A DNA stretch of 64,000 nt, taken from positions 62,001 to 126,000 of the forward strand of contig NZ_VTXI01000003.1 in the NCBI RefSeq assembly GCF_013114545.1, read 5' to 3'. Source of the stretch: Vibrio sp. RE86. GTDB lineage: Bacteria > Pseudomonadota > Gammaproteobacteria > Enterobacterales > Vibrionaceae. Positions 2,668 to 11,792 of the stretch are shown here, piece after piece (within the stretch, counting starts at the first letter, position 1; every line of letters begins with the position of its first letter). The translations under genes and the position numbers were made by a program. Below the pieces are notes generated by a model. That model saw only the letters and a list, made by a program, of their open reading frames with translations, made no database searches and was not told the origin of the DNA.

Positions 2668-3957
2668 ATGGCAGATAAGAAAGCTATCCTTCATGTTGAA
2701 GGTCAAGCGCCTATCGAGCTGCCGATTATGGAAGGTGCCCTAGGCACACCTGTGATTGATGTTCGTAAACTGGGAGCAAATGGATATTTCACTTTCGACC
2801 CAGGTTTTCTTGCCACTGCATCTTGTGAATCCCAAATCACCTACATTGATGGCGGTAAAGGCATCCTTCTGCACCGCGGTTACCCTATTGATCAGTTGGC
2901 TAACAATGCTGATTACTTAGAAGTATGTTACATCCTTTTATACGGTGAAGCCCCTACACGTGAACAGTACGAGCAGTTCAAAACAACCGTGACTCGTCAC
3001 ACAATGGTCCATGAGCAAATTGCAAGTTTCTTCCACGGCTTCCGTCGTGATGCTCACCCAATGGCCGTTATGTGTGGTGTCGTTGGTGCACTGGCTGCGT
3101 TTTACCACGATTCATTAGATATCAACAACGACGAGCACCGTGAAATTGCTGCTTACCGTCTGCTTTCAAAAATGCCGACGCTTGCAGCAATGTGTTACAA
3201 GTACACTATCGGTCAGCCGTTCATTTACCCACGTAATGATCTGAACTATGCAGAAAACTTCCTGCACATGATGTTCGCAAATCCATGTGAAGAGTACGAC
3301 GTTAACCCTGTTGTTGCTCAAGCAATGGATAAGATCTTTACTCTTCACGCAGACCACGAGCAAAACGCCTCAACGTCAACTGTTCGTCTATCTGGTTCAT
3401 CTGGTGCAAACCCATTTGCGTGTATTGCAGCAGGTATCGCTTCTCTTTGGGGCCCAGCTCACGGCGGCGCAAACGAAGCATGTCTGAAGATGCTGGAAGA
3501 GATCGGCAGCGTAGAGAATATTCCAGAGTACGTTGCACGTGCGAAGGATAAAGAAGACCCATTCCGTTTGATGGGCTTTGGTCACCGCGTTTACAAGAAC
3601 TACGACCCGCGTGCGACAGTAATGCGCGAAACGTGTCACGAAGTTCTTAAAGAGCTAAACATCAAAGATCCACTACTAGACGTAGCTATGGAACTTGAGC
3701 GTATTGCTCTATCTGACGAATACTTCGTTTCTAAGAAGCTATACCCTAACGTAGACTTCTACTCAGGTATCATTCTTAAAGCAATCGGTATCCCTGTTTC
3801 AATGTTTACGGTTATCTTCGCGATTTCTCGTACTATCGGTTGGATTGCTCACTGGAACGAAATGCACAGCGACCCACTAAACCGTATCGGTCGTCCTCGT
3901 CAGCTATACACTGGTGAAGTTCAGCGTGAGTTCTCACCTCTTCATGAGCGTGAATAG
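2668..3957 (+). CDS. gltA: citrate synthase (type II, hexameric family)
   Basis: It condenses oxaloacetate and acetyl-CoA to citrate, the entry step of the TCA cycle. At 429 residues it has the standard length of the Gram-negative NADH-sensitive type. Visible motifs include the catalytic-histidine regions ([20 protein letters not shown] and [14 protein letters not shown]) and the C-terminal [13 protein letters not shown] segment with the catalytic aspartate region. A strong ribosome site (AAAGGAG) sits 7 nt before the ATG. It is transcribed away from sdhCDA and followed by its own terminator. Confidence 0.98.
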
Positions 3958-3984
3958 TCAGTAATACGTTTTCGTAAATACAAA

Positions 3985-4013
3985 AAAAGCCCTTTATAGG
4001 GCTTTTCTTTTTT
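3985..4013 (+). terminator. rho-independent terminator of gltA
   Basis: An 8-bp stem AAAAGCCC/GGGCTTTT with a 6-nt loop is followed by a T-rich tail, 27 nt after the gltA stop. Confidence 0.85.
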
Positions 4014-4033
4014 ATATCACTAGTTTCTTAGTC

Positions 4034-4690
4034 TTATACGATAGGACTATGTTCTGTTAACTGATCGACCGCAGATTGGCATGACAAGACGATGTGTGAC
4101 GTTAACACTTCAACAGCTCCCTCTATATCTCTGCTTAACGCCAGATCCAACAATTGCTTGTGTTGCCTATCGAGCTGAGCGCGCACTTCTGTATCCGGAT
4201 CAGAAATTCGGCGATATTTATCAAGTGCCGTTCCAAGCCTTTTAGAGAAATCGATAAGATAAGTGGAATCAGCTCCCGACAGCAAAATTGAATGAAACTC
4301 TTCATGCGCTTCACTCCACGCATCAAGATGATCAACCGATAGTCGAAGTCGTTCTAAACGGTAGTGAGCAGCCACTAATTTTGACTCCCAATCCATATCG
4401 CCACTGTTCAATGACAAACGTAATGCTTCGGTTTCAACCAGTATACGGGTTTGTCGAATCTCTAGAATATCTCGATAACTCAATTTAGGGACCGAAAACC
4501 CTTTATTGATTTGCTGTTCAAGTAACCCCTGGGCAGATAGCTGGCTCAATGCTTCTCTCAGCGGTGTCAAGCTTACATCATACTCATTCTTCAAATGCGA
4601 GATATTGAGCTTTTGCCCTGGCTGCAGTACTCCTTCAGATAATTCACGTTTGATACGTTCATAAATGATTGCGCTTTTAGTTTGTGACAA
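4034..4690 (-). CDS. GntR-family transcriptional regulator (FCD subfamily)
   Basis: A DNA-binding repressor or activator of about 218 residues. The N-terminal winged helix (about residues 8-70) contains YERIKRELSEGVLQPGQKLN and SLTPLREALSQLSAQGLLE, the standard GntR signature. The C-terminal half is an all-helical FCD ligand domain with HEEFHSILL and RQHKQLLDLA, which fit the usual metal-binding histidines. No ATG is well placed: TTG codons at 4696 and 4690 are the candidates, and the ribosome site AAGGA favours 4690. It is divergent from the tctC gene, so it probably controls the transporter-hydrolase operon in response to the imported carboxylate (inference). Confidence 0.85.
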   Translation of the reverse strand: MSQTKSAIIYERIKRELSEGVLQPGQKLNISHLKNEYDVSLTPLREALSQLSAQGLLEQQINKGFSVPKLSYRDILEIRQTRILVETEALRLSLNSGDMDWESKLVAAHYRLERLRLSVDHLDAWSEAHEEFHSILLSGADSTYLIDFSKRLGTALDKYRRISDPDTEVRAQLDRQHKQLLDLALSRDIEGAVEVLTSHIVLSCQSAVDQLTEHSPIV

Positions 4691-4743
4691 AGGCAATTTC
4701 CTTATTGACTAGTTACACACCATGTGGTTTATTTGTTGCACAC

Positions 4744-4769
4744 TTTAAAAATAATCGATTATTTTTAAA
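4744..4769. promoter_or_regulatory. 26-bp perfect palindrome, candidate operator of the GntR regulator
   Basis: A perfect, AT-rich palindrome centred on TCGA at 4755-4758 (arms TTTAAAAATAATC/GATTATTTTTAAA) lies 30 bp before the tctC start and about 54 bp before the regulator start. The position between divergent genes suits an autoregulatory operator. It is not a terminator, since it has no T tail and neither gene ends here. Confidence 0.5.
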
Positions 4770-4798
4770 AAGTACATAAATACAAGGATGATGTGTTA

Positions 4799-5767
4799 AT
4801 GAAATTTAAATATTCTTTCGCGATTGCTGCTATTTTGGGTTCTGTTTCAACAATTTCTTTTGCTCAAGACGACGTTAAACTACCGTGTAACACCGCTAAA
4901 CTGATTGTTCCATGGGGTGCAGGTGGTGGTACCGACATTATCTTTCGCACAATCGTAGAAGAAGCAAATGCTCAAGGTGCGAAGCCAAAATTGCAAGTTG
5001 TTAACATGCCAGGACGCAGTGGCAACAAAGGTTCCAAGAAATTCTTAAAATCTCGTAAAAATGGCTGTGAGCTACTTGCCATCCACCAATCGGTTATGAC
5101 GAGCTACCTTGGCGGTCAGGCTAAAGTAAATTGGGATGGATATCAACCAGTTGCGCAACTTACTGAGACTGCTGAGTACATCGGTGTAAATGGTCAGCAG
5201 CCGTATTCTACGCTGGCTGAACTTCAATCTTACGCAAAACAAAATCCAAACTCCGTCGTTGCAGCCGGTTCGTTGGGCTCGACTTCTCACTACACCATGC
5301 TAATGCTAGAAGATGCACTAGGCGTTAAATTCCGCCATGTCTCTTACGATGGTACACGTGAGCGTACCACTGCCCTACTTTCAGGTAATGCTCATATCGG
5401 TCTAGCGAACTTAACTTCTTCTCGTAAAAACGTAGAAACAGGCGCGATCAAGCTGCTAGCCACTACGTCTGAAGGCCGTCAAAGCCAACTTCCAGAAGTT
5501 CCATCAGCGAAGGAGCAAGGCTTCGATGTTGAATTCGGCGTTCGTCGTGGTATCGCACTTCCAAAAGGAACTGACTCTAAAATCGTTACTCATTACGAAG
5601 AATTATTCGAAAAGGCAGTAAATAGCCCTAAGGTACAAGAAACGCTACGTGTTAAAGGTACTGAGGTGAAATTCCTAGCTTCGAATGATTATGCTGCAGC
5701 ACTAGGTAACGAGTTTGGTTCATGGGAAGCGCTTGCAAAGCAAGTTGGTATCTACAACGTTAAGTAA
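4799..5767 (+). CDS. tripartite tricarboxylate transporter substrate-binding protein (TctC/BugT family)
   Basis: The periplasmic solute receptor of a TTT-family importer, 322 residues. An N-terminal signal peptide (MKFKYSFAIAAILGSVSTISFAQ) is followed by the family motif IVPWGAGGGTDIIFR, which forms part of the ligand pocket. Two cysteines in the mature protein (PCNTAK and KNGCELL) could form a disulfide. A GTG six bases upstream is also possible, but the AAGGA ribosome site is correctly spaced only for the ATG at 4799. It is the first gene of a rightward operon with tctB, tctA, a GGT-family enzyme and two CHR genes. The substrate is unknown; the family carries di- and tricarboxylates and related acids. 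Confidence 0.9.
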   Translation: MKFKYSFAIAAILGSVSTISFAQDDVKLPCNTAKLIVPWGAGGGTDIIFRTIVEEANAQGAKPKLQVVNMPGRSGNKGSKKFLKSRKNGCELLAIHQSVMTSYLGGQAKVNWDGYQPVAQLTETAEYIGVNGQQPYSTLAELQSYAKQNPNSVVAAGSLGSTSHYTMLMLEDALGVKFRHVSYDGTRERTTALLSGNAHIGLANLTSSRKNVETGAIKLLATTSEGRQSQLPEVPSAKEQGFDVEFGVRRGIALPKGTDSKIVTHYEELFEKAVNSPKVQETLRVKGTEVKFLASNDYAAALGNEFGSWEALAKQVGIYNVK

Positions 5768-5775
5768 CTCTTTTA

Positions 5776-5795
5776 AGGGCGGGGAAATCCGCCCT
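5776..5795 (+). terminator. intercistronic hairpin between tctC and tctB
   Basis: A 7-bp GC-rich stem AGGGCGG/CCGCCCT with a 6-nt loop is followed only by a weak T run. In binding-protein operons such hairpins usually protect or attenuate the mRNA so that receptor is made in excess over the membrane subunits. I infer the same here. Confidence 0.6.
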
Positions 5796-5828
5796 CTTTA
5801 ATTCGATTACTTGTTAGGGAGAGCAGGT

Positions 5829-6311
5829 ATGAATCTTATCAACAAGGATAGCGTTGTTAGTTTAATGCTACTGTTGGGCTGTGGTGTGTTTATCAACGCA
5901 TTAGGTGATATCGAACGCACAAACTACGGCACTATCACCTCAAATATCTGGCCAACCATCGTATTGTCTGTTCTGACAACTTTATGTGCTATCTACTTTC
6001 TAACTTCTCTTAAGCCGACTCAAGAAGAAAAAGAGTCCTTCAACTGGAAAACCTTTTTCCCTCGTAATGTTGTGATTGTTTTTGCTTTGTTTGCAGGTTT
6101 TGTTTATTCACTTCCTTTCCTTGGCATGCTAATCGGCGGAAGTACATTTGTGTTTCTTGTACTTACTGCAATTGGTCATAAGACAATGAAGTATGTGTTT
6201 ATTCACTTAGGTATTGCCATTGGCAGTGTTGCTGTTATGTACGGCGTATTCACTTATGGATTGAGTGTAATGCTACCTGAAGGCGAGTTGTTGTACTCAC
6301 TCATGTATTAA
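5829..6311 (+). CDS. tripartite tricarboxylate transporter small membrane subunit (TctB family)
   Basis: A 160-residue integral membrane protein with four hydrophobic segments (about residues 10-27, 39-60, 78-100 and 115-150), the expected shape of TctB. The start at 5829 has GGGAGAGCAGGT before it; an in-frame TTG at 5811 is less likely. It sits between the receptor and TctA, 11 nt before tctA. Sequence conservation in TctB is low, so the assignment rests on topology and context as well as residues. Confidence 0.85.
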   Translation: MNLINKDSVVSLMLLLGCGVFINALGDIERTNYGTITSNIWPTIVLSVLTTLCAIYFLTSLKPTQEEKESFNWKTFFPRNVVIVFALFAGFVYSLPFLGMLIGGSTFVFLVLTAIGHKTMKYVFIHLGIAIGSVAVMYGVFTYGLSVMLPEGELLYSLMY

Positions 6312-6322
6312 AGGAAAAATCC

Positions 6323-7990
6323 ATGTTTGTAGATGTATTAGAAGCTGCAAATCAGCTATTCACACTCGACACTATGATGTTGATGGCAGCAGGTACTTTT
6401 GGTGGCTTGCTCGCGGGTTCGGTTCCGGGCTTTACCATCACAATGGCGATTGTATTAACACTACCGTTCACATTCGGTATGACTCCAATTCAAGGCTTAG
6501 CAACGATGATTTCTGTCATGGTTGGTGGCCTATCAGGCGGTTTAATGTCTGGCATGCTAACAGGTATTCCAGGCACACCGTCTTCCATTGCAACCACATT
6601 TGATGGTTTTCCTTTAGTACGTAAAGGGAAACCGGGCTTAGCTCTTGGCCTTGGTGTTTGGGCTTCGTTTTTTGGCGGTATTTTCTCAGCCGTAGTATTA
6701 GTGGTACTCGCTCCGCAGCTTGCAAATATAGGCCTAGAATTTGGCCCATGGGATTACTTTTCTCTGGTTCTTTTTGCCCTAACGATTACCGCAAGTTTAT
6801 CTAACGACAGCCTCGTAAAAGGTTTGATTGCAGGTGCCTTAGGTCTCCTAGTTGCCTGTATAGGTACTGATGATCTTAATGGCGTAGAACGTTTTACTTT
6901 TGGCACTGAGTTTCTAGTCGATGGTTTCGCGTTTCTCCCTGTTCTGATTGGTCTGTTCGCATTCTCTCAGCTACTAGGAGACATCTCTGATCGCAATAAA
7001 GCGAAAGAGCCTTTAATGAAAGAGACAGGACAAGCGACTAAAATCAATCACTTCGCGGCTATCAAGCAAGTATTGTCTAGCTGGGTTAACCTATGTCGTT
7101 CAAGTGCAATTGGTGTATTTACCGGTATTCTTCCAGCTGCGGGCAGTTCTATCTCAAACGTTTTGGCATATGACCAAGCTAGGAAGTCTTCTAAAGAAAA
7201 AGAAGAGTTTGGTAAGGGGCACCCTGATGGTATCATCGCACCTGAAGCTTCAAACAACGCAACGGCTGGCGGTTCTCTTATCTCAATGATGGCACTTGGA
7301 ATCCCAGGTGATGTGGTTACAGCAGTAATGTTAGGCGCATTGATGGTTCATAACATTGTTCCAAGCCCTGGTTTCATCAGTGAACAACCTGTATTGGCAA
7401 ACGGTATTTTCATTGCCTTCTTTATTGCCCACTTCTTTATGGTTGGTTTGCAGTCTCTATGCCTTAAAGCGTTTGTTCAGGTGACCCGTGTCCCAATGTA
7501 CACTTTGGCGTCAGTAATCCTACTTTACTGCTCAGTTGGCGTATTTTCGCTAAACAACTTAGAAGCAGATATATGGACGCTATTCATCTTTGGTGTAGTT
7601 GGTTTCGTATTAAAGGGGCTTGGCTTCCCACTCGCACCTATGATTTTGGGTGTAGTCCTTGGACACATCGCTGAAGTGAACTTCTCACGAGCGCTGTCTA
7701 CCGACTCAGATCTAATGGTGTTCCTAACTCGCCCATGGTCGGCATTCTTCATTGTATTGGCACTGTTCTCTTCATGCTTCCCTGCGTACCAAAAAGGTAA
7801 ACGCACTAATGCAGCGTGGGCAGGTTACTTTATGCCAATCATGATGTTCTCTCTTTCTGTTCCTCTATTCATGATGGATGGTGTTGTTCGCTCGGTTATC
7901 GCTGCAATTATCGTTGCAGCTGGCATTTATAACCTTTACCAACACATGAGTAGCTTAAAAGTTGTAAAAAAGGAAATTAACAATGCTTAG
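6323..7990 (+). CDS. tripartite tricarboxylate transporter large membrane subunit (TctA family)
   Basis: The main transport channel of the TTT system, 555 residues with about a dozen membrane segments. Conserved family stretches are visible: the N-terminal GTFGGLLAGSVPGFTITMAIVL, then GGLMSGMLTGIPGTPSSIATTFDG, and the repeat-related GILPAAGSSISNVLAYDQARKSS and GGSLISMMALGIPGDVVTAVMLGALM. The start has AAAGGAA before it. Its end overlaps the next gene by 8 nt, so translation of the GGT-family enzyme is coupled to the transporter. Confidence 0.95.
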   Translation: MFVDVLEAANQLFTLDTMMLMAAGTFGGLLAGSVPGFTITMAIVLTLPFTFGMTPIQGLATMISVMVGGLSGGLMSGMLTGIPGTPSSIATTFDGFPLVRKGKPGLALGLGVWASFFGGIFSAVVLVVLAPQLANIGLEFGPWDYFSLVLFALTITASLSNDSLVKGLIAGALGLLVACIGTDDLNGVERFTFGTEFLVDGFAFLPVLIGLFAFSQLLGDISDRNKAKEPLMKETGQATKINHFAAIKQVLSSWVNLCRSSAIGVFTGILPAAGSSISNVLAYDQARKSSKEKEEFGKGHPDGIIAPEASNNATAGGSLISMMALGIPGDVVTAVMLGALMVHNIVPSPGFISEQPVLANGIFIAFFIAHFFMVGLQSLCLKAFVQVTRVPMYTLASVILLYCSVGVFSLNNLEADIWTLFIFGVVGFVLKGLGFPLAPMILGVVLGHIAEVNFSRALSTDSDLMVFLTRPWSAFFIVLALFSSCFPAYQKGKRTNAAWAGYFMPIMMFSLSVPLFMMDGVVRSVIAAIIVAAGIYNLYQHMSSLKVVKKEINNA

Positions 7991-9596
7991 TAATGACGGA
8001 TTATCTTATCCATACTCGTCACAACGTATGGCTACCTACGCTAAAAATGGCATGGTGGCGACTTCCCAGCCACTAGCAGCTCAGATCGGTGCAGACATTT
8101 TAAAGCAAGGTGGTAATGCCATTGATGCTGCGATTGCTACAGCCGCCGCGCTTACCGTCGTAGAACCAACAGGCTGTGGTATCGGTGGTGATGCATTTGC
8201 CATTGTATGGGTTAAGGACAAGCTCTACGGACTAAATGGCTCAAGCTTTGCGCCTGAAGCACTGACACCAGAACTAATGGAGCAACAAGGTCATGACAAG
8301 ATGCCTCTTTACGGCTGGACACCTGTCACCGTACCTGGTATCCCAGCATCTTGGGCTGCATTGAGTGAGCGTTTTGGTAAACTGCCTTTTGCTGACCTGA
8401 TGGAACCTGCTGCCAAGCTGGCAGAAGAAGGATTCCCTGTTTCACCAACAATCAGCTTCCTATGGAATAAAGCTGCACAAACATTCGATGCAGAGCTAGA
8501 AGGTGAGGTAAAACAAGCTTGGTTTGATATGTTCACAAAAAGTGGCAACGCACCAACTCCCGGTGAACTTTTCACAAGCCCAGGTCATGCCAGCACTCTA
8601 CGTTCGATTGGCCAGACTAAAGCAACCAGCTTCTACCACGGTGATATCGCAGATAAAATTGATGCCTTTTCACAAAAGACAGGCGGTTTGATTCGTAAGT
8701 CTGATTTAGAGCGCTATGAAGTTGAGTGGGTTGACCCAATCAAGGTTAACTACAAAGGCTACGACGTGTGGGAGATCCCACCAAATGGTCAAGGCATGGT
8801 CGCGTTAATGGCGCTCAACATGCTAAAAAATGATGAATTCAAGAGCCGTGATGACCTAGAAACTATCCATAAACAGTGTGAAGCGATGAAGCTTGCCTAT
8901 GTTGATGGTCAAGCGTACATCACGCAACGCGATAAGATGTCTGTATCTGTTGAAGGTTTACTGTCTGACGAATACGCACAGACACGTCGCAACTTAATTG
9001 GCGACAATGCGATTAAACCAACGATTGGTAAACCACCAGCTGGCGGTACGGTGTATCTAGCCGTTGCAGACAACGAAGGCAACATGGTGTCGTTTATTCA
9101 AAGTAACTACCACGGATTCGGTTCTGGTGTTGTAGTTCCAGATACTGGTATTGCGTTGCAAAATCGTGGAGAAAACTTCTCACTCGATCCAAATCACGAT
9201 AATTACCTACAGCCAAATAAAAAAACCTACCATACCATTATCCCTGGATTTATCACTAAAGGTGATCAACCTGTTGGCCCGTTTGGTGTAATGGGCGGTT
9301 TTATGCAGCCTCAGGGGCATATGCAGGTCGTCATGAACATGATCGACTTTGGCTTAAACCCGCAAGCTGCGCTTGATGCCCCTCGCTGGCAGTGGATGGG
9401 TGATATGAATATCGGCTTAGAACAAGCGATGCCGAATCATATTGTGACAGGCATGCTGCGCAAAGGGCATAAGGTCCAAGTCGCATCAGATTACACCACT
9501 TATGGCCGTGGTCAGATTATCGTAAAAGATCCACTGACAGGCGTATTGTGTGGTGGCACAGAAGCTCGTACTGATGGCTCAATTGCAGCATTCTAG
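7983..9596 (+). CDS. gamma-glutamyltransferase-family amidohydrolase (YwrD/oxamate-amidohydrolase-like), cytoplasmic
   Basis: An Ntn-hydrolase of 537 residues. The N-terminal half has QGGNAIDAAIATAAALTVVEP and GCGIGGDAFAIV. The likely self-cleavage and catalytic threonine is Thr356 in AGGTVYLAVADNEG, where other GGTs have the TTH-type motif. There is no signal peptide, unlike classical periplasmic GGT, so it resembles the YwrD group, whose members include oxamate amidohydrolases. Overlap with tctA and the surrounding transporter genes suggest that it hydrolyses an amide or gamma-glutamyl bond in the imported compound. The true substrate is unknown; glutathione transferase activity should not be assumed. 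Confidence 0.85.
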   Translation: MLSNDGLSYPYSSQRMATYAKNGMVATSQPLAAQIGADILKQGGNAIDAAIATAAALTVVEPTGCGIGGDAFAIVWVKDKLYGLNGSSFAPEALTPELMEQQGHDKMPLYGWTPVTVPGIPASWAALSERFGKLPFADLMEPAAKLAEEGFPVSPTISFLWNKAAQTFDAELEGEVKQAWFDMFTKSGNAPTPGELFTSPGHASTLRSIGQTKATSFYHGDIADKIDAFSQKTGGLIRKSDLERYEVEWVDPIKVNYKGYDVWEIPPNGQGMVALMALNMLKNDEFKSRDDLETIHKQCEAMKLAYVDGQAYITQRDKMSVSVEGLLSDEYAQTRRNLIGDNAIKPTIGKPPAGGTVYLAVADNEGNMVSFIQSNYHGFGSGVVVPDTGIALQNRGENFSLDPNHDNYLQPNKKTYHTIIPGFITKGDQPVGPFGVMGGFMQPQGHMQVVMNMIDFGLNPQAALDAPRWQWMGDMNIGLEQAMPNHIVTGMLRKGHKVQVASDYTTYGRGQIIVKDPLTGVLCGGTEARTDGSIAAF

Positions 9597-9604
9597 AGGC
9601 AGTA

Positions 9605-10174
9605 ATGAAAACACAAATTGATTTGTTTAATGCATTCTTCCGCATTGGAATTTTTGGCTTTGGCGGCGGACCAACCATGATTCCATTGGTGCATAAAGAG
9701 GTAGTCGATAATTACCAATGGATGGAAGACGAAGAGTTTTCTAACGTGCTCGCCATTGGTAACACCCTTCCAGGGCCAATCGCTACAAAAATGGCAGGCT
9801 ATATCGGTTATAAAGTTGGCGGTGTTACGGGGTGTATCAATGCAGTGATTGCCACCATTGTTCCACTGATCATTGTTATGATTGCGGGGCTTGGCCTTCT
9901 TAATGAATATCGAGATACCCCTTGGGTATCGGGTATGGCGCAAGGTGTCGTACCCATCGTTGCTTGGATGATGGCCAAACTTTGTTATGACTTTTTCCTC
10001 AAAGGTCACAAAGCTGTCGGCGCAGTCGCCACTGGGCTACTAGCGGTTGGTTCTCTAGGATTGATCCTCGGCTTTGGCGTTCACCCAGGTTTAATTGTTG
10101 CAGCGGTTTTGGTTGCTGTATTAATAAAACCTGAAAAGAAGTCTGAACTAGAAACCAACGAGCAGAAGGGCTAA
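9605..10174 (+). CDS. CHR-family transporter, half-size (chromate-transporter domain), first of a pair
   Basis: A 189-residue membrane protein made of one CHR domain. The signature GFGGGPTMIPLVHKEVV near residue 18 and GNTLPGPIATKMAGYIGYKVGG near residue 57 are those of the ChrA/CHR superfamily. Bacteria commonly carry such single-domain forms as adjacent pairs that act together. It is co-transcribed with the GGT-family gene (8-nt gap) and has its partner 2 nt downstream. Chromate efflux is only one known activity of the family; within a carboxylate operon another anion may be carried. Confidence 0.88.
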   Translation: MKTQIDLFNAFFRIGIFGFGGGPTMIPLVHKEVVDNYQWMEDEEFSNVLAIGNTLPGPIATKMAGYIGYKVGGVTGCINAVIATIVPLIIVMIAGLGLLNEYRDTPWVSGMAQGVVPIVAWMMAKLCYDFFLKGHKAVGAVATGLLAVGSLGLILGFGVHPGLIVAAVLVAVLIKPEKKSELETNEQKG

Positions 10175-10176
10175 TT

Positions 10177-10707
10177 ATGCAGGTTTATATTGATATCTTT
10201 TTAGCGTTCTTTATTCCGAACATCGTTGGCTACGGTGGTGGTCCTGCGATTATTCCACTTATTGAGGCTCAAGTCGTTGGTCATTACGGTTGGATGGATG
10301 CTAACCGCTTTGCAGAAGTTCTCGCGCTAGGCAATGCACTACCAAGCCCAATCGCAACCAAAATGGCGGGCTACATAGGCTATGAAGTCGGTGGTAGCCT
10401 AGGTGCGTTTATTGCTGTGTTTGCAACTGCAGCACCAACGATTCTTATCATGATCGTAGCGATGAGTATCTTATACAAATATCGCAATGCGCCTAAAGTG
10501 AAAGCGCTGAGCGCATGGGTTTTGCCCGTGATAGCAGCGCTGATGGTCATTCTTAGCTACAAACTGGTGCTTTCTGGCATTGAGTCTGGCGTCGTGCATT
10601 TTGCTTTGCTGTTTGTGTTTGCAGCCATCGCACTCGAAAAACTAAAGATTCACCCGACTTGGGTCATCTGCAGTGGTTTAGCGTATGGTGCGATATTCAT
10701 GGGTTAA
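10177..10707 (+). CDS. CHR-family transporter, half-size, second of a pair
   Basis: A 176-residue CHR-domain membrane protein. It repeats the signatures of its neighbour, GYGGGPAIIPLIEAQVVGHYGWM and GNALPSPIATKMAGYIGYEVGG, with clear but partial similarity, so the pair arose by an old duplication. It is the last gene of the operon and is followed by a strong terminator. Probably it forms a heterodimer with the preceding product in the cytoplasmic membrane (inference from the family). Confidence 0.88.
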   Translation: MQVYIDIFLAFFIPNIVGYGGGPAIIPLIEAQVVGHYGWMDANRFAEVLALGNALPSPIATKMAGYIGYEVGGSLGAFIAVFATAAPTILIMIVAMSILYKYRNAPKVKALSAWVLPVIAALMVILSYKLVLSGIESGVVHFALLFVFAAIALEKLKIHPTWVICSGLAYGAIFMG

Positions 10708-10729
10708 CCTCTTTATCAACCCACAGAGT

Positions 10730-10760
10730 AAAAGCGCCACTCAAGTCGAGTGGCGTTTTT
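10730..10760 (+). terminator. rho-independent terminator of the tct-GGT-CHR operon
   Basis: An 8-bp stem CGCCACTC/GAGTGGCG flanked by A and T runs lies 23 nt after the last CHR gene. Confidence 0.85.
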
Positions 10761-10938
10761 ATACCAATCTGGATAAATAGGTGATCAGATAATTGCACAG
10801 AAAAAATCGCTTAGAGCAAGGCATAGATTGCCGCTAGCTAGTTGACCTACCTACACCATTCTTTCAAAACATAGCTATAACGAAGCTATTAGCGATTTTA
10901 GCAAGCAAGAATGACCAGATATTTATTTAGGTTGGTAT
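10761..10938. repeat. 178-bp MITE-like element with imperfect terminal inverted repeats
   Basis: The element starts ATACCAATCTGGATAAATA and ends with the near inverse TATTTATTTAGGTTGGTAT. Pairing continues inward: AAAAATCGCTTAGAGC on the left matches GCTATTAGCGATTTTA on the right. It codes for nothing and could fold into a long hairpin RNA. It fills the gap between the operon terminator and the end of the Nif3-family gene. From memory, dispersed elements with ATACCAATC-type ends are common in Vibrionaceae; no second copy occurs in this window. Confidence 0.6.
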
Positions 10939-10943
10939 TACTT

Positions 10944-11702
10944 TTAAACTGGGTTATCGATGTCGATAAACTCAACTTCTAAGTCATGCTCTTTTGCTAA
11001 CCATTCCCCTAACGCTTTAATACCGTAACGTTCTGTTGCGTGGTGACCTGCTGCAAAGTAATGAATATCCTGCTCTCGAGCGGAATATGTCGTACGCTCT
11101 GAAATCTCACCAGAGATAAACGCATCTAAACCATACTGAGCAGCAAGCTCTATATAATCTTGGCCGCCACCAGTACACCAGCCAACCGTTTCAATCATCT
11201 TATCTGAATTTTCTGGGGCAATATGCAGCGGTTGACGATTCAAAACTCTATTGATTCTTTCTGAAAACTCAGCGCCAGTCACAGGGTTCTTTAAACGACC
11301 GAACATAGCCACCGATTGAGGGTGACCTTCAAGTCCACCTTCGACTTCGATCTCTAGCAGTCTTGCCAACTCTGCGTTATTACCAAGCTCAGGGTGAATA
11401 TCTAACGGTAAGTGATAGCCCAACAAGTTAATGTCATTTTTGATTAATGTGCGGATTCGTTTGCCTTTCATGCCGCGAATAGGCTCAGGTTCACCTTTCC
11501 AAAAGTAACCATGGTGAACAAGCAATGCATCGGCATTTAACTCAACAGCTTTATCAATCAACGCCTGAGAAGCGGTCACACCTGTCACAACTCGCTTTAT
11601 CTCTTGCGCCCCTTCAACTTGTAATCCATTCGGGCTGTAATCTTTAATCAGTTGAGGAGATAACTTCTCGTTAATTATCTTTTCCAATTGCAGGTTATTC
11701 AT
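10944..11702 (-). CDS. Nif3-like dinuclear metal centre protein (YbgI family)
   Basis: A cytoplasmic protein of about 252 residues of the Nif3/YbgI family, once annotated as GTP cyclohydrolase I type 2; the physiological role is not settled. Metal-binding motifs are present: LLVHHGYFWKG and LLGYHLPLDIHPELGNN in the N-terminal part, and the C-terminal FAAGHHATERYGIKAL. The ATG at 11702 has GGAAG before it; a TTG 12 nt upstream is a poorer start. It reads into the MITE-like element and is divergent from the DUF1853 gene. Confidence 0.9.
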   Translation of the reverse strand: MNNLQLEKIINEKLSPQLIKDYSPNGLQVEGAQEIKRVVTGVTASQALIDKAVELNADALLVHHGYFWKGEPEPIRGMKGKRIRTLIKNDINLLGYHLPLDIHPELGNNAELARLLEIEVEGGLEGHPQSVAMFGRLKNPVTGAEFSERINRVLNRQPLHIAPENSDKMIETVGWCTGGGQDYIELAAQYGLDAFISGEISERTTYSAREQDIHYFAAGHHATERYGIKALGEWLAKEHDLEVEFIDIDNPV

Positions 11703-11792
11703 GGTCACTTCCAATTAATTATTTTTGCCAAAGTGTATACCTATCTGAGTTCTAGGTACAATGGCCCCAATGCAGAATCAATAGGAATCAGG

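Follow-up and report, generated by a model that had tools for sequence, protein, structure and literature searches.

The window analysed here is a stretch of 64,000 nucleotides (nt) from contig NZ_VTXI01000003.1 of the marine bacterium Vibrio sp. RE86. Its positions 4034-10707 hold a block of seven genes, in which a GntR/FCD regulator is divergent from six genes in the order tctC-tctB-tctA-hydrolase-CHR1-CHR2. Every one of these genes is backed by a Pfam match, which upholds the gene content and order given in a preliminary description read from the nucleotide letters alone. The regulator (4034-4696, minus strand; PF00392 and PF07729) is followed on the plus strand by all three subunits, in the order C-B-A, of a tripartite tricarboxylate transporter (TTT): tctC (4799-5767; PF03401), encoding a periplasmic substrate-binding protein whose nearest solved chain is 4x9t, tctB (5829-6311; PF07331), encoding the small membrane subunit, and tctA (6323-7990; PF01970), encoding the large permease. 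Next come a YwrD-type amidohydrolase of the gamma-glutamyltransferase (GGT) family (7983-9596; PF01019, G_glu_transpept) and two short mono-domain proteins of the chromate transporter family (PF02417, Chromate_transp), CHR1 (9605-10174), which was also placed in a tree, and CHR2 (10177-10707). The block is flanked by the backbone genes gltA, encoding citrate synthase (2668-3957, plus strand; Pfam and NCBIfam), and a Nif3/DUF34 family gene (10944-11714, minus strand; PF01784), in agreement with the family names first proposed for them.

The overlap of 8 nt between tctA and the hydrolase (7983-7990) and the gaps of 8 nt before CHR1 and 2 nt before CHR2 were confirmed. The tight packing described for the whole operon applies from tctB onward and does not extend to tctC, since the likely start codons (ATG 4799 for tctC, for which the gene caller gives GTG 4793, and ATG 5829 for tctB) leave an interval of 61 nt between tctC and tctB that contains a GC-rich, terminator-like hairpin with a weak T tail (5776-5795, plus strand). 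This hairpin may serve as a read-through or processing site, and the genes behind it may as a result be expressed less strongly than the one for the binding protein.

The hydrolase carries no signal peptide (N-terminus MLSNDGLSYPYSSQR), and its nearest solved relative is 2nlz from B. halodurans (E=1e-226 over residues 5-536), which is labelled as a cephalosporin acylase and belongs with YwrD of B. subtilis to the same GGT subfamily, likewise without signal peptide. Its YwrD-type assignment is therefore retained. The fold of PF01019 is present together with the N-terminal Thr nucleophile of the small chain, and Thr356 (codon at nt 9048-9050), found in 102/102 relatives, is by alignment the catalytic residue. 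In E. coli GGT the residues Arg114, Asp433 and Ser462-463 have a role in gamma-glutamyl binding (PMC8062742). The position of Arg114 is occupied by Ser in 101/102 relatives (Ser87 in the window), that of Ser462-463 by His-Thr in all 102 (His417-Thr418), and that of Asp433 is variable in the clade, with Asn in the window (Asn398) and in 60/102 relatives. The active-site letters of 2nlz are the same as those of the window hydrolase. A reading of the Asp-to-Asn change as the mark of a cephalosporin acylase was rejected, because Asn is not kept across the clade. Judging from these alignments, the gamma-glutamyl site is lost, and the gamma-glutamyl-linked substrate that the preliminary description had allowed is not supported, because the residues holding that group are missing throughout the 102 close relatives. 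Across the same relatives the motifs NRG, HT, MGG and QPQ and the residue R529 are invariant, and they are shared in the alignment with the beta chain of HpxW, the oxamate amidohydrolase of Klebsiella (5hft), and with its congeneric orthologs. The HpxW beta chain is 41.7% identical to that of the window hydrolase, compared to 28-31% for classical GGTs.

The gene neighbourhoods of the hydrolase were read at 80 loci from a genome scan and at three congeneric loci, and linkage was counted at the 73 loci that had 4.5 kb or more of sequence to either side, taking neighbours within 7 kb. As these loci, which are related to each other, were chosen solely by hydrolase similarity, linkage to CHR genes was not built into the sample. 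A short CHR pair lies near the hydrolase at 58/73 loci, TctA at 16/73 and a family-5 ATP-binding cassette (ABC) importer at 24/73, while no locus (0/73) scored for both TctA and the family-5 importer. The CHR genes vary in position: they may follow the hydrolase or precede it, lie on the far side of an Lrp gene, be divergent from the hydrolase, or stand in front of tctC. Other genera thus also combine the hydrolase with a CHR pair and an importer, in several gene orders, and the functional link between the hydrolase and the CHR pair is real. The link to TctABC recurs elsewhere with both hydrolase and CHR, but it is not obligatory, as TctCBA is one of several interchangeable importers and is swapped among relatives with Dpp/Gsi-type ABC systems, which score best to GsiB, though far under its cut-off. 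A SulP-family anion transporter is found beside the hydrolase and TctCBA at three loci (L080, 11641-12942; L111 and L116, about 5000-6180), and at L080 it is present where the CHR pair is absent. SulP proteins can carry oxalate, and this pattern suits a divalent product. At the f186 loci (L178-L184) the same hydrolase accompanies an ABC importer, the binding protein of L180 being PotD-like (SBP_bac_8).

The genus has another group of GGT-family proteins, which are HpxW orthologs, 55-60% identical to the beta chain of Klebsiella HpxW. Their operons encode an AtzE/HpxY-like amidase, HpxW, a class V aminotransferase, the allantoate amidohydrolase AllC and, mostly, a DUF5718 protein, for which we know of no role in an allantoate-to-oxamate type pathway; they also carry either a polar amino acid ABC system or an NCS1 allantoin-type permease. 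In six congeneric genomes (L196-L201) these operons end in CHR1-CHR2. In five of them the pair lies no more than 73 nt downstream of DUF5718, and in the sixth about 290 nt downstream of AllC. The HpxW-linked proteins are 71-79% (CHR1) and 77-81% (CHR2) identical to those of the window, and in the CHR1 tree they form its sister group (98/88), the nearest kin after V. pelagius. Consequently, one CHR lineage stands beside two kinds of operon that share a GGT-family amidohydrolase signature. The HpxW systems differ from the window in being part of an allantoate-type pathway and in having no TTT importer. In the literature, YwrD is said to be very similar to HpxW and to co-evolve with purine degradation, and Hicks and Ealick 2016, as cited there, are reported to have shown that HpxW acts on oxamate (PMC5270733).

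Concerning regulation, GntR/FCD proteins are found at the hydrolase loci of Gammaproteobacteria and Lrp/ChrS-like ones in Bacilli. The nearest named family of the window regulator is CsiR, with 121 bits against an equivalog cut-off of 218; CsiR responds to glutarate. In 7/7 carrier genomes the window GntR matches best the GntR encoded at the hydrolase locus (129-153 bits, versus at most 103 for any other), and this holds with a TTT as well as with an ABC importer. Between the regulator gene and tctC there is a perfect palindrome of 26 bp, TTTAAAAATAATCGATTATTTTTAAA (4744-4769), which we propose as the GntR operator. Its ATCGAT core occurs at 23/24 GntR-linked loci (shuffle mean 3.3) and at 6/35 Lrp-linked ones, and AATCGATT at 19/24 (shuffle mean 0.3) and 1/35, respectively, counts that come from related loci, so that the comparison with shuffles overstates their independence. 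In the window genome the palindrome is the sole site within 3 mismatches, suggesting that GntR probably acts locally. The palindrome is also present at a stand-alone GntR-CHR locus in genome G402.

The acquisition of the block, proposed in the preliminary description along with a comparison of gltA-nif3 junctions, is well supported. In 19/19 congeneric genomes with a legible region downstream of gltA, this gene adjoins nif3, the block is missing and 69-394 bp separate the two genes. A close ortholog of the hydrolase was found in only 4/148 congeneric genomes, the other three copies being 59-60% identical to that of the window, which clusters in the tree with Oceanospirillaceae/Halomonadaceae (support 90-91), apart from those three. 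The ABC-type carriers within the genus were rejected as direct donors, given that their hydrolase lies on a separate branch. Relatives of the block are plasmid-borne. Genome G031 (locus L203, 7773-9801) has a deleted version in which the palindrome is kept, the GntR is 69% identical, the hydrolase is reduced to two fragments (aa 226-245 and 490-537), and the CHR pair is intact (CHR1 91%, CHR2 90% identical). The G031 contig shares its gene layout with the Vibrio pelagius plasmid NZ_AP025505.1, and a second V. pelagius plasmid has a layout identical to that of the first (loci L215 and L217). On these plasmids the deleted block lies between katG and a molybdopterin oxidoreductase gene, and the hydrolase fragments are annotated as a small hypothetical protein. 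Outside the genus, the six-gene order of the window, tctC-tctB-tctA-GGT-CHR-CHR, was found on the Oceanisphaera plasmid pA, close to IS66 pieces; TctA of this plasmid is just 36% identical to that of the window, so its TTT system was probably recruited separately. The empty junctions, the deleted copy on the V. pelagius plasmid and the gene order on the Oceanisphaera plasmid together establish that the block was horizontally acquired. A foreign composition was rejected: the block has a GC content of 0.446, similar to the 0.455 and 0.439 of its flanks, and it is therefore the empty sites, not composition, that reveal the acquisition. The genes of 3958-10943 include no integrase, and terminal repeats were not noticed at the block ends.

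The sequence of uptake, intracellular hydrolysis and anion export suggested earlier stands as the most economical reading of the operon. To this the present analysis adds the HpxW/oxamate link, the conservation of the operator and the sharing of the CHR pair with an allantoate-type operon. We tentatively favour a nitrogen scavenging module, at a probability somewhat short of even, in which both the substrate and the direction of transport are proposals. GntR/FCD would respond to a pathway metabolite and control the block by way of the ATCGAT palindrome, making it self-regulated. TctCBA would import a small carboxylate that bears an amide, oxamate or a close derivative of it being the most likely, and the cytoplasmic YwrD-type N-terminal nucleophile hydrolase would cleave its amide with Thr356, freeing ammonia or an amine and a dicarboxylate, most likely oxalate, which the CHR1/CHR2 pair would then export as the dianion. 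An oxalyl-CoA decarboxylase was not found above cut-off in ten carriers, including the window genome, other oxalate routes not having been searched, and oxalate use through that enzyme was rejected on this ground. Oxamate is naturally available: E. coli produces it as a dead end, accumulating 17.7 mM from 19.5 mM allantoin (PMC11326118). The active site and the HpxW bridge both suit oxamate, as do the missing decarboxylase and this bulk production by E. coli.

Several observations weigh against this nitrogen scavenging module. Over the whole protein the window hydrolase is only 27-29% identical to congeneric HpxW, so that it falls outside HpxW orthology and may act on a different amide. The Dpp/Gsi-type ABC systems that many relatives use would not obviously import oxamate, and a PotD-like importer is found at f186 loci. 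Five HpxW operons have no CHR genes, the GntR-CHR unit of G402 stands alone without hydrolase, and short CHR pairs are found near MesX (and MesD-like) methionine synthase genes, again without hydrolase, in G064 and G402. To our knowledge, chromate tolerance is the sole reported activity of short CHR pairs. The idea of CHR as a universal marker of the hydrolase was rejected, as G402 and G064 have CHR without it. The CHR-MesX loci are located at L208 (6147-9477) and L214 (5871-11860).

Other dicarboxylic monoamides (malonamate, succinamate, glutaryl or N-acyl amino acid amides), with the diacid exported by CHR or used, are unlikely substrates that nevertheless have several points in their favour. 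Gsi/Dpp-type ABC importers suit peptide-like amides, and CsiR, with its response to glutarate, is the nearest named family of the regulator. At the Asp433 position the window has Asn, as do class IV cephalosporin acylases, and E. coli GGT with the D433N change becomes active on a glutaryl amide (PMC8062742); this Asn is, however, variable in the clade (see above), no recurring gene for diacid use was seen beside the operon, and the HpxW-linked CHR pair points to oxalate.

Another, improbable, explanation concerns the direction of CHR transport: the pair would work inward or as an exchanger (e.g., sulfate in, oxalate out) and not as a simple exporter. Chromate/sulfate antiport has been proposed for CHR proteins, as indicated by the title of Nies 1998 (via PMC8940164), and the stand-alone GntR-CHR unit would be compatible with it, but inward transport would duplicate the work of the TctCBA or ABC importers that these loci already have. 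True gamma-glutamyl hydrolysis, scavenging glutathione or gamma-glutamyl peptides, is still harder to sustain and was rejected on the active-site residues. The Pfam family, a TIGR00066 score of 359.8, barely over the cut-off of 357.85, and the distant GsiB resemblance of the relatives' importers would accommodate it; the residues needed to bind the alpha-carboxylate and alpha-amino groups are missing clade-wide, and the genome separately encodes a classical GGT. Moreover, YwrD has no role assigned in B. subtilis (PMC8062742) and, according to the title of Minami 2004 (via PMC4568574), is not important for the use of extracellular glutathione. The least probable explanation is a chromate/sulfate-stress cassette with hydrolase and importer as passengers, which would agree with the chromate tolerance of the ChrS-controlled short pair ywrBA of B. 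subtilis (PMC8940164) and with the best match of the Bacilli Lrp regulators to ChrS, but not with the hydrolase staying beside the CHR pair across phyla and gene orders, the lack of a chromate reductase or ChrB regulator at the inspected loci, and window CHR scores (163 and 172 bits) under the ChrA/ChrB equivalog cut-off of 250.

Among known systems, those of Bacilli are close to the window in the YwrD-type hydrolase, with a short CHR pair nearby in many cases, but they differ in their Lrp/ChrS-like regulator and in an importer that is mostly of the Dpp/Gsi ABC type or absent. The window CHR proteins form an adjacent mono-domain pair as in the ywrB/ywrA type, from which they differ by GntR/FCD control, by their place beside an amidohydrolase and by scores below the ChrA/ChrB cut-offs. 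Likewise, TctCBA differs from known TTT systems in being coupled to an amidohydrolase and anion transporters. In the E. coli operon iaaA-gsiABCD an Ntn-hydrolase gene is combined with a peptide-type importer; compared to the window, hydrolase family and importer are different and CHR is absent.

CHR proteins take their name from chromate. The recurrent hydrolase-CHR pairing, with the HpxW operons as bridge, bears at the same time on what the short pairs naturally carry and on the role of YwrD. A wider proposal, which we regard as doubtful, is that short CHR pairs are mainly exporters or exchangers of oxalate (organic dianion) serving YwrD/HpxW amidohydrolases, and that YwrD-type enzymes are oxamate or substituted-oxamate amidohydrolases. 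If true, both protein groups would thereby gain the natural role that they lack.

At the left edge of the block, a terminator-like hairpin of gltA (3985-4006) has similar counterparts after gltA in block-free relatives. On the right, a terminator-like hairpin 3' of the operon (10735-10755) was listed on the minus strand; read on the plus strand, its stem has TTTTTA behind it. Next to it, the repeat with which the block was said to end is real, but instead of bounding a mobile unit it is a common dispersed element, resembling a miniature inverted-repeat transposable element (10757-10938; inverted ends TACCAATCTGGATAAATA...TATTTAGGTTGGTA) and present in about 19 near-full copies in the genome, this one included, plus fragments. 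For this reason it was rejected as a transfer vehicle. Xanthine-dehydrogenase genes by the hydrolase at L084 were also rejected, since the family search gave RpiR, VanZ and a GAP1-domain protein. Finally, in Halomonas (L066, L068 and L085) a gene for an NhaC-type antiporter, a family searched in L066 only, is located just upstream of the hydrolase, beside GntR.

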